Assembly (NCBI RefSeq): GCF_019683595.1
Contig: NZ_JADGHZ010000013.1
Location: forward strand, 1-44,259
Length of the DNA stretch: 44,259 bases
Direction: 5' to 3'
Source: Sphaerobacter sp.
GTDB taxonomy: Bacteria > Chloroflexota > Chloroflexia > Thermomicrobiales > Thermomicrobiaceae
Shown here in pieces: positions 22,948 through 25,493 of the stretch (positions within the stretch are counted from its first letter, which is position 1; every line of letters starts with the position of its first letter). The position numbers were made by a program, and so were the translations under genes. The notes under the pieces were generated by a model that was given only the letters and a program-made list of their open reading frames with translations, was not told where the DNA came from and did no database searches.

Positions 22948-23946
22948 ATGCAGCGACGGACCCGGCTCGCCGCGCTCGCGCTCGGCGCGGCGGCACCGGT
23001 GGCACTCGTGACCGTTGCCCGCCGCCGCGCCGACCCGGCGCAGTCCCGCACGCTCCTCCCGCCGGAAGCGCTGGCGGACGACGACAGCACCTTCATCGAT
23101 GTGGACGGGCTGCGGGTCCACGCAAAGGTTGCCGGCCAGGGTGACCCGACTGTAGTGCTGATCCACGGCTTCGCGGCCGGCGCCTTCATCTGGCGCCAGG
23201 TGATGCCGCCGCTTGCCCGTCGCGGCACGGTGGTGGCCTTCGACCTCCCCGGCTTCGGCCTGACGGCCCGCCCCGCTCCGGATGCCTGGCCGCGCGGCAA
23301 CCCGTACGACCCCGAGGTCCAGGCCGACCTCACCGTCGCGCTGCTCGACCGCCTCGGGATCGACCGCGCCGTGCTCGTCGGGCACTCCGCCGGCGCCCGC
23401 GTCGCCATGCTCGCGGCGCTGCGGTACTCCGAACGGGTCAGCGGGTTGGTCCTCGTCACGCCCGCGCTGGACCCACCGTCTCTGCGCCGCTCGCTGGCGC
23501 TGCTCGTGCGTGCGCCCGCCTTGGACCGACTGCTCCCCCGCGTCGCGCAATCCGCCTCGGCGCGGGCCGCGTACATCCTGCGCTACGCCGTCTACGACCG
23601 CGCCGTCGTGACCGATGAGCTCGTCAAGGCGTATCTCACGGCGCTCCAGGTGGATGGGTGGGACGCGGCACTCGCCTGCGCCGTCCGTGCCGCCCGGCCG
23701 CTGGGTCTGCTGGACCGGTTCGGAGAGCTTCAGGTCCCGTTCATGGCCATCTTCGGGATGTACGACCGCATCGTGAACCCGCGCCAGGTGGTCCGGATGA
23801 CCACCGTTCCCGACCTCTTCATGTTCGTCTTCATGGAGCACACCGGGCACCTGCCCCAGGTCGAAAAGCCGGAGGACTTCGTCGACTTCATCGAGGATTT
23901 CCTGAACCATCTCGAACAGCGCGCGAGCGAGAGGAGCACGTCGTGA
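22948..23946 (+). CDS. Alpha/beta hydrolase
   Basis: A 332-residue hydrolase. Residues 1-25 contain a basic start (QRRTR) and a hydrophobic stretch, probably a signal peptide or anchor. The fold begins HVKVAGQG-like at about 58, with the oxyanion motif HGF (73-75), nucleophile elbow GHSAGA (Ser147) and RYSERVSGLVLVTPA. There is a probable acid in FGMYDRIVNP (about Asp272) and a catalytic His301 in HTGHLPQ. GGAGG precedes ATG 22948. Its stop overlaps the start of the Sec-peroxiredoxin gene (GTGA), so the two are translated together. Esterase, lactonase or haloperoxidase-like activities are all possible; none can be assigned. Confidence 0.87.
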   Translation: MQRRTRLAALALGAAAPVALVTVARRRADPAQSRTLLPPEALADDDSTFIDVDGLRVHAKVAGQGDPTVVLIHGFAAGAFIWRQVMPPLARRGTVVAFDLPGFGLTARPAPDAWPRGNPYDPEVQADLTVALLDRLGIDRAVLVGHSAGARVAMLAALRYSERVSGLVLVTPALDPPSLRRSLALLVRAPALDRLLPRVAQSASARAAYILRYAVYDRAVVTDELVKAYLTALQVDGWDAALACAVRAARPLGLLDRFGELQVPFMAIFGMYDRIVNPRQVVRMTTVPDLFMFVFMEHTGHLPQVEKPEDFVDFIEDFLNHLEQRASERSTS

Positions 23947-24410
23947 TCCGTCCCGAACACGAGACCACCGCCCCCGATTTCACGCTGCCCGACACGCACG
24001 GGCGGGACATCCGCCTCTCGGACGTGCTCCGGCGTGGCCCCGTCGTGCTGGCGTTGCTGCGCGGGCTCGCCTGACCGCACTGCCGCCGGCAGCTCGCGCA
24101 GTTGCGCGACCACTATTCGCAGTTCCAGCAGCGCGGCGCCGAGGTTCTCGCCATCGCTCCGGACCGCCCGGACGCCGTGCGCGCCTACTGGGAGCGAGAG
24201 CGCATCCCCTTCCCCGGCCTGATCGACTCCGACCACGCGGTAGCCAGGCGGTACGGCCAGCAGATCCGAGTGCTTCGTTTCGGCCGCATGCCTGCTGTGC
24301 TCATCGTCGACTCCGCGGGGGTGATCCGCCACCGCCACGACGGCCGGTCGATGCGCGACATCCCCACCGTCGACGACCTCCTCACGTGCCTCGACCAGCT
24401 CAACCAGTGA
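23943..24410 (+). CDS. Selenocysteine-containing peroxiredoxin-like protein (UGA read-through)
   Basis: A 155-residue AhpC/TSA-type thioredoxin-fold protein if the in-frame TGA at 24072-24074 is read as selenocysteine (Sec44). The N-terminal part APDFTLPDTHGRDIRLSDVL and VVLALLRGLA leads directly to Sec-Pro-His-Cys47-Arg-Arg-Gln-Leu. This is where family members have the peroxidatic C-P-x-C. After the TGA the frame stays open with intact family sequence (GAEVLAIAPDRPDAVRAYW, PFPGLIDSDHAVARRYG, RMPAVLIVDSAGVIRHRH). A hairpin meeting bacterial SECIS criteria follows 19 nt after the TGA. GTG 23943 overlaps the hydrolase stop. It should reduce peroxides using thioredoxin or a similar donor. Automated annotation would give a 43-residue fragment or start at 24102. 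Confidence 0.85.
24094..24109 (+). promoter_or_regulatory. SECIS-like hairpin for the Sec-peroxiredoxin
   Basis: TCGCGC (24094-24099) pairs with GCGCGA (24104-24109), with apical loop AGTT; an A-T pair could extend the stem and shrink the loop to GT. The loop begins 25 nt after the TGA, within the 16-37 nt window of bacterial SECIS elements, and has the required G among its first two bases. A second small stem CTGCC/GGCAG lies closer to the TGA (24080-24092). Confidence 0.65.
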
Positions 24411-24521: not shown

Positions 24522-25493
24522 GTGGGAAGCGGTGCACAGGTCGGCGTGATCGTCGGGAGCTACAACGCCCACGTCGGGTTCCCCGCGGCCATGGAGATCC
24601 TACGCGCGGGCGGCAGCGCGCTCGACGCCGCCGTTGCAGCGGTCAAGGTCATCGAGGACAACCTTGAGGACCACAGCGTCGGCACGGGTGGAATCCCCAA
24701 CATCCTCGGGCAGGTTGAGCTCGACGCCAGCATCATGGATGGCACGACCCTCGCGGCGGGCGCGGTCGGCGCGGTCAAGAACTACCCCCACCCGATCGAG
24801 ATCGCCCGCAAGGTCATGGAGGTCACGCCCCACGTGATGCTGGTCGGCGAGGGTGCCGAGCTCTTCGCCCGCGTCCACGGCTTCGAGACCGCCAACCTCC
24901 TGACCGAAGAGGCGGAGCGGGAGTGGCGGCGCCAGATCCTGGGTGAGGACGGCGCACCGGGTGAGGGCGACTCCTGGGAGGACCAGTACAGCCTCTACAT
25001 GAGCGTCGTGAAGGACTGGACCAAGCTCCTCCATAAGGAGATCTTCGGCACCACCAACGTCATCGTCCGCGATACCCAGGGCAACATTGCCAGCGCCGTC
25101 TCCACCAGCGGCTGGGGCTTCAAGTGGCCGGGCCGGCTGGGCGACTCACCCATCATCGGCGCCGGCAACTACGCCGACTCGCGCTTCGGCGCCGCTGCCT
25201 GCACCGGGCGCGGCGAAATGGCGATCCGGGCCGCCTCGGCCCACAGCGTCGTCACCTACCTGCGCCAGGGTATGGCGCTGGAGGACGCCCTCCGCACGGC
25301 CATGCTCGACCTGCGTGCGCTGGTGGACCCCTTCGCCGAGCGCGATAACATCATGAACATCGTCGCCATGGACCGGCACGGCAACGTCGCCGCCGCCTCC
25401 ACCAGCCTCGCCGCCCGCTACGTCTTCCAGACCACCGAGATGGACGACTTCGAAGAGCGCCCCCGCATCCACGTTCCCCTGCGCGACGAGTAG
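24522..25493 (+). CDS. N4-glycosylasparaginase/isoaspartyl peptidase-family Ntn hydrolase
   Basis: A 323-residue member of the asparaginase type-2 (Thr-nucleophile) family. The N-terminal alpha part has NAHVGFPAAMEILRAGGSALDA and EDHSVGTGGIPNILG. The precursor should cleave itself before a threonine in FGTTNVIVRDTQGN (about residues 176-178), creating the beta chain. That chain continues with ASAVSTSGWGFKWPGRLGDSPI, GAGNYADSRFGAAACTGRGE and AAASTSLA. These are the substrate-binding blocks of glycosylasparaginase. The usual T-[IV]-G after the nucleophile reads T-T-N here, a deviation. GTG 24522 follows a purine-rich GGGAAGGG tract. TACAAT at 24438-24443 may be its -10 box. Substrate: beta-aspartyl peptides or asparagine conjugates. 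Confidence 0.82.
   Translation: MGSGAQVGVIVGSYNAHVGFPAAMEILRAGGSALDAAVAAVKVIEDNLEDHSVGTGGIPNILGQVELDASIMDGTTLAAGAVGAVKNYPHPIEIARKVMEVTPHVMLVGEGAELFARVHGFETANLLTEEAEREWRRQILGEDGAPGEGDSWEDQYSLYMSVVKDWTKLLHKEIFGTTNVIVRDTQGNIASAVSTSGWGFKWPGRLGDSPIIGAGNYADSRFGAAACTGRGEMAIRAASAHSVVTYLRQGMALEDALRTAMLDLRALVDPFAERDNIMNIVAMDRHGNVAAASTSLAARYVFQTTEMDDFEERPRIHVPLRDE

Follow-up and report, generated by a model that had tools for sequence, protein, structure and literature searches.

A predicted UxxC-class peroxiredoxin-like selenoprotein gene of Sphaerobacter and its alpha/beta-hydrolase neighbour

A reading frame on the forward strand of a 44,259-nucleotide stretch of Sphaerobacter sp. DNA (contig NZ_JADGHZ010000013.1 of assembly GCF_019683595.1, the whole of which is called the window here) starts with GTG at 23943 and ends with a TGA stop codon at 24408-24410, with a TGA at 24072-24074 as its sole interruption. 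This raises the question of whether the internal codon is read as selenocysteine (Sec) and, if so, which place Sec takes in the active site. An earlier note, made from the sequence alone, had taken this TGA to give the motif U-P-H-C in an AhpC/TSA protein, with the frame and the family similarity continuing on both sides. This was indeed borne out, as the AhpC-TSA match of the read-through product (1.1e-30, 106.5 bits, residues 9-130) spans the UGA, and so does a match to Redoxin (8.3e-24). The residues around the UGA read L-L-R-G-L-A-U-P-H-C-R-R-Q-L, with U44 and C47 at the ends of the motif. The gene and its two active-site codons are:

23943-24410, forward strand: predicted peroxiredoxin-like (AhpC/TSA) selenoprotein gene, 155 aa, UxxC active site
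24072-24074, forward strand: UGA codon for the predicted Sec44
24081-24083, forward strand: codon for Cys47, the putative second residue of the redox pair, invariant in alignment A2

Conservation of the UGA was followed across relatives of the window's genome. Orthologues with one internal TGA are present in 16 other genomes of the same family (42-84% identity), with the G016 orthologue containing an additional TAA inside the matched stretch, and in all 15 of those that were read, two of which (L035 and L036) are near-identical, TGA occupies exactly the window's codon. Of the best 50 matches in 400 phylum genomes, 49 contain an internal TGA. A second batch of 29 phylum loci, 10 of which repeat genomes already counted, has TGA at the same codon throughout, within the motif UP[YHFV]C. 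This brings the distinct UGA loci with TGA at this codon to 35 of 35 across the phylum, the window's included, and none of these 35 has TAA or TAG there. The earlier note had proposed to look for homologues with Cys at residue 44, and one such orthologue, the only match without TGA among the best 50 (L082 in genome G288, 50% identical), has TGC at the Sec codon; CxxC is also found in the homologues L039, L043 and L045. Beyond the 35 loci, the orthologue of Thermomicrobium roseum DSM 5159 likewise has a UGA, in LLRGLRUPYCRRHL. The ratio dN/dS is similar before and after the UGA, being 0.32 and 0.31 in the comparison of the window with G001 and 0.31 and 0.41 with G002. Conservation of the same TGA codon in several families of the phylum and the equal purifying selection on its two sides, together with the covarying hairpin and the complete Sec machinery described below, led us to reject a real stop, be it in a decayed or split pseudogene or through a sequencing error, as hardly credible, even though 24102 offers an alternative TTG start and the T. 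roseum orthologue ends at its UGA in RefSeq as a 42-aa hypothetical protein (WP_012643006.1; L086:2929-3057, corresponding to NC_011961.1 545266-545394). The gene is widespread in the phylum, and its annotation is shortened in T. roseum, the only named genome that was checked, so that its biology has probably been overlooked. In same-order genomes, three AhpC/TSA homologues (L047, L048 and L050) contain two UGA codons, reading W-U-P-T-U-R, that is UxxU.

The genome that carries the window (3.9 Mb in 324 contigs, 99.98% complete) contains all four genes for Sec synthesis and insertion that the earlier note had named for checking, with selA at 529 bits (cut-off 268), selB at 350 bits (cut-off 242), selD at 380 bits (cut-off 125) and selC as a tRNA-Sec at 74 bits (gathering score 47), whose anticodon is TCA according to ARAGORN. 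SelD of this genome has an in-frame UGA of its own, in SCAGUASKMG. The same holds for selA among relatives, as it is above the cut-off in 16 of 16 same-family genomes with a UGA orthologue, the window's genome being excluded from this count. The idea that a different tRNA decodes the UGA as Cys or Trp could appeal to the Cys found at this position in one orthologue; however, the presence of tRNA-Sec with a TCA anticodon along with selA, selB and selD, and a hairpin that tracks the UGA, make such suppression extremely improbable, and it was rejected.

As the earlier note had also claimed, a hairpin that follows the bacterial SECIS rules lies downstream of the UGA:

24094-24109, forward strand: predicted bacterial SECIS hairpin, 6-bp stem UCGCGC/GCGCGA, loop AGUU at 24100-24103 (covariation, shuffles, folding)

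Its loop is 25 nt from the UGA and has G at position 2. Taken alone, the window hairpin is no better than chance: 186 of the window's 1014 TGA triplets (18%, both strands) have an equally long or longer hairpin in the permitted place, the folding z-score is -1.2, and the 71 nt at 24060-24130 fold no more stably than shuffles (z 0.66). Since the window has no Rfam match at the gathering score, the SECIS call rests on the alignment, and what lifts the hairpin above chance is the same codon in 35 loci, covariation in the stem, the absence of any such hairpin from the Cys orthologue and a near-fixed TTG codon in the loop. In a first alignment of 16 sequences (15 of the gene and L042, a more distant UGA homologue), 96.4% of pairs in a 7-bp stem are kept, with two-sided changes in three of them. 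The covariation score of 0.268 fell to 0.082 or less when the partner was slid by 1-3 columns, a control that retains relatedness. With 24 sequences, four of the seven pairs have two-sided changes and the score is 0.205 against 0.101 in shuffles; in either alignment 0 of 500 shuffles reached the observed score, counts that are not probabilities because the sequences are related. TTG makes up 5% of Leu codons in the window's reading frames and 12% in the remainder of these same proteins, and is nearly fixed in the loop. A simple search found CAGTTG in 26 of 35 loci; in two of the others, where Gln-Leu occurs twice, it picked the earlier pair. In the Cys orthologue, Gln-Leu is encoded by CAACTT and the hairpin is absent. 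In most loci read from the family f16, Gln-Leu stands nearer the UGA by three codons (RAQLARLR in place of RRHLAQLR), and there the hairpin GCGCGC-AGUUG-GCGCGC lies 16 nt after the UGA, 9 nt nearer, shifted along with Gln-Leu, which is read as a putative SECIS moving together with its loop codons. The orthologue set therefore offers a natural experiment on SECIS evolution, with no hairpin where Cys is encoded and a three-codon shift in one clade. With the whole Sec machinery in the genome, the proposal that this is a selenoprotein gene whose SECIS is of the bacterial type was upheld. Judging from sequence, the UGA at 24072 is almost certainly read as Sec, and the product would be a redox enzyme that resembles peroxiredoxins and belongs to a selenoprotein family already known.

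One part of the earlier reading did not survive alignment to solved structures, namely that Sec, as in PrxU, occupies the peroxidatic position. In the peroxiredoxin motif PxxxS/TxxC (F-S-P-V-C in 2cx3), Sec44 lines up with the Ser/Thr; it also lines up with the first Cys of CPHC in ResA (3c71), hence with a CxxC of the thioredoxin/ResA type. The residue that matches the peroxidatic Cys in solved peroxiredoxins is Cys47. Pro117, within R-M-P-A-V, stands in the sequence alignment at the position of the catalytic Arg of 2cx3; the invariant Arg115 two residues before it might substitute. An AlphaFold2 model of the protein (pLDDT 90.0, pTM 0.87) matches Bcp4 (Z 23.3, rmsd 1.9, 152 residues aligned) and AhpE (Z 22.2), and ResA is also matched by Foldseek; by its modelled fold the protein groups with Bcp and AhpE, and its redox pair is thioredoxin-like. 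Given the full peroxiredoxin fold of the model, peroxidase activity via Cys47 or Sec44 may occur. That the protein is a true Sec-peroxiredoxin of the PrxU kind, with Sec44 as the peroxidatic residue for H2O2 or alkyl hydroperoxides, would agree with its AhpC/TSA family and complete fold, and selenolates are good peroxide reducers, but we consider it unlikely in view of the alignment of Sec44 with Ser/Thr and not Cys, of Pro117 at the place of the catalytic Arg, and of a score of only 16.9 bits against the NCBIfam PrxU model NF040737 (cut-off 270); membership in PrxU was rejected on the first and last of these grounds. A second AhpC/TSA selenoprotein candidate of the same genome (L083, G000:C116:15000-17675, match starting at 1495) reads YYYFAFSSGUANEM, that is SxxU, and its Sec corresponds to the Cys47 position of the window's protein, the true peroxidatic place.

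The division between the two classes is also drawn in the literature, since Table 1 of a 2026 review has 'Peroxiredoxin, PF00578, TxxU' as verified and, as a separate class predicted with high confidence, 'Prx-like thiol:disulfide oxidoreductase, PF00578, UxxC, UxxU' (PMC13188914). Earlier, 225 sequences of Prx-like 1 (pfam00578, UxxC) had been counted in a 2008 ocean survey (PMC2398784). By motif and domain, the predicted protein belongs to the UxxC class of Prx-like thiol:disulfide oxidoreductases, with whose representative (WP_010940744.1) it shares, as far as the description in that table goes, PF00578 and Sec as the first residue of UxxC (PMC13188914). The gene is a well-supported selenoprotein gene, as predicted from sequence, with a corrected active-site assignment. 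Taken as a whole, the best explanation, which we hold with high confidence, is that it encodes a cytosolic AhpC/TSA selenoprotein of the UxxC class with a Sec44/Cys47 redox pair and a probable coupling to a hydrolase. The earlier note had further regarded such a protein as unusual in an aerobe, which is not borne out: in a survey of more than 5200 organisms, 40.4% of Sec users were aerobic and thermophilic conditions were preferred (PMC5029168), so that neither aerobic growth nor thermophily marks the protein as odd.

Several known systems resemble the protein in part. With PrxU (TxxU, NF040737) it shares the AhpC/TSA family and a Sec in the active-site region, but its Sec precedes the PrxU position by three residues, and a Cys comes after it at the spacing of CxxC. 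The best NCBIfam match is the SelL-related redox protein NF040769 (74.1 bits, 9.9e-21), yet this match covers only residues 9-105 and lies below the cut-off of 120 bits. ResA-type proteins are similar in fold, and the CPHC variant (PDB 3c71) aligns exactly with UPHC; ResA is extracytoplasmic with a role in cytochrome c maturation, whereas the window's protein has Sec in place of the first Cys and no apparent signal peptide. A search of genome contigs with the single protein returned only two loci, both Asgard archaeal (L051 and L052 of Ca. Borrarchaeum, 30-31% identical), with LLRSINUPYC at the same position. A Prx-like selenoprotein family has been reported for Asgard archaea, with SECIS elements in the 3'-UTR (PMC11227280), whereas the window hairpin lies inside the coding sequence. 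The two genes of Ca. Borrarchaeum are in tandem, one encoding UPYC and the other UGHU. A description of the gene in Sphaerobacter or Thermomicrobium was not found in the literature, which is no proof of priority; a Sphaerobacter AhpC protein, D1CAV3, appears in a figure legend (PMC5330540) and may or may not be the product of this gene.

Less expected was that several families of the phylum have the same membrane-type hydrolase next to this gene. The window's copy lies directly upstream:

22948-23946, forward strand: alpha/beta-hydrolase, 332 aa (Abhydrolase_1, 2.9e-28)

Its stop codon overlaps the start of the selenoprotein gene by 4 nt (GTGA), and its N-terminus has positive charges and a hydrophobic stretch (MQRRTRLAALALGAAAPVALVTVARRR) that is probably a membrane anchor. 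The link to an alpha/beta-hydrolase that the earlier note had drawn proved real, as 15 of 35 UGA loci, and T. roseum besides, have a homologue directly upstream in the same orientation, and the pair extends over eight genera in three families (f1, f16 and f48); a sixteenth upstream hydrolase, at a contig edge, is weak, and in about 20 of the 35 loci the neighbour was not found. In 14 of the 15 loci, the upstream neighbour is the genome-wide best match to the window's hydrolase, and in G442 the second best, so the neighbours appear to be one and the same gene rather than hydrolases of any kind. Like the window's copy, several neighbour hydrolases are hydrophobic at the N-terminus, suggesting that the enzyme is anchored in the membrane and faces outwards. 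G442 has a second UGA copy (C123:78407-78841), with that genome's best hydrolase match (82172-83035) located 3.3 kb downstream, and the pair may exist there twice.

In the mechanism that we propose from sequence and covariation, SelB would bring Sec-tRNA-Sec to the UGA at 24072, guided by the hairpin at 24094-24109. Sec44 and Cys47, at the N-terminal end of the first long helix, would then act as a redox pair of the thioredoxin type. The motif suggests that the substrate, a disulfide or a hydroperoxide, would be attacked by Sec44, with Cys47 resolving the intermediate as a selenenylsulfide and a thiol reductant recycling the pair. The selenoprotein and the hydrolase would be made from one transcription unit and, judging from the 4-nt overlap, are probably translationally coupled. 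The conserved hydrolase neighbour is a concrete lead to the substrate, and the most economical guess is that the selenoprotein would reduce peroxidised or disulfide-bearing products while the hydrolase would take esters of the same damaged molecules. We regard as unlikely the idea that the anchored hydrolase and the Sec protein make up an undescribed two-gene system, for instance one clearing peroxidised lipids, in which damaged acyl chains would be released by the hydrolase and then reduced by the Sec protein. The review's treatment of the Prx-like thiol:disulfide oxidoreductase class, as consulted, makes no mention of a hydrolase neighbour (PMC13188914).

Other neighbours vary between lineages. 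In eight f16 loci (L065-L067, L069-L072 and L075), another family (CRKCPRL...PVPGFGDP), which by eye resembles uracil-DNA glycosylase, is located directly upstream instead of the hydrolase. On the downstream side of the window's gene, at a distance of 111 nt, lies:

24522-25493, forward strand: isoaspartyl peptidase/asparaginase-family gene (Asparaginase_2, 1.3e-71)

This asparaginase-family gene is kept downstream in six loci from two genera of the family, comprising the window, L022, L023, L033, L035 and L036.
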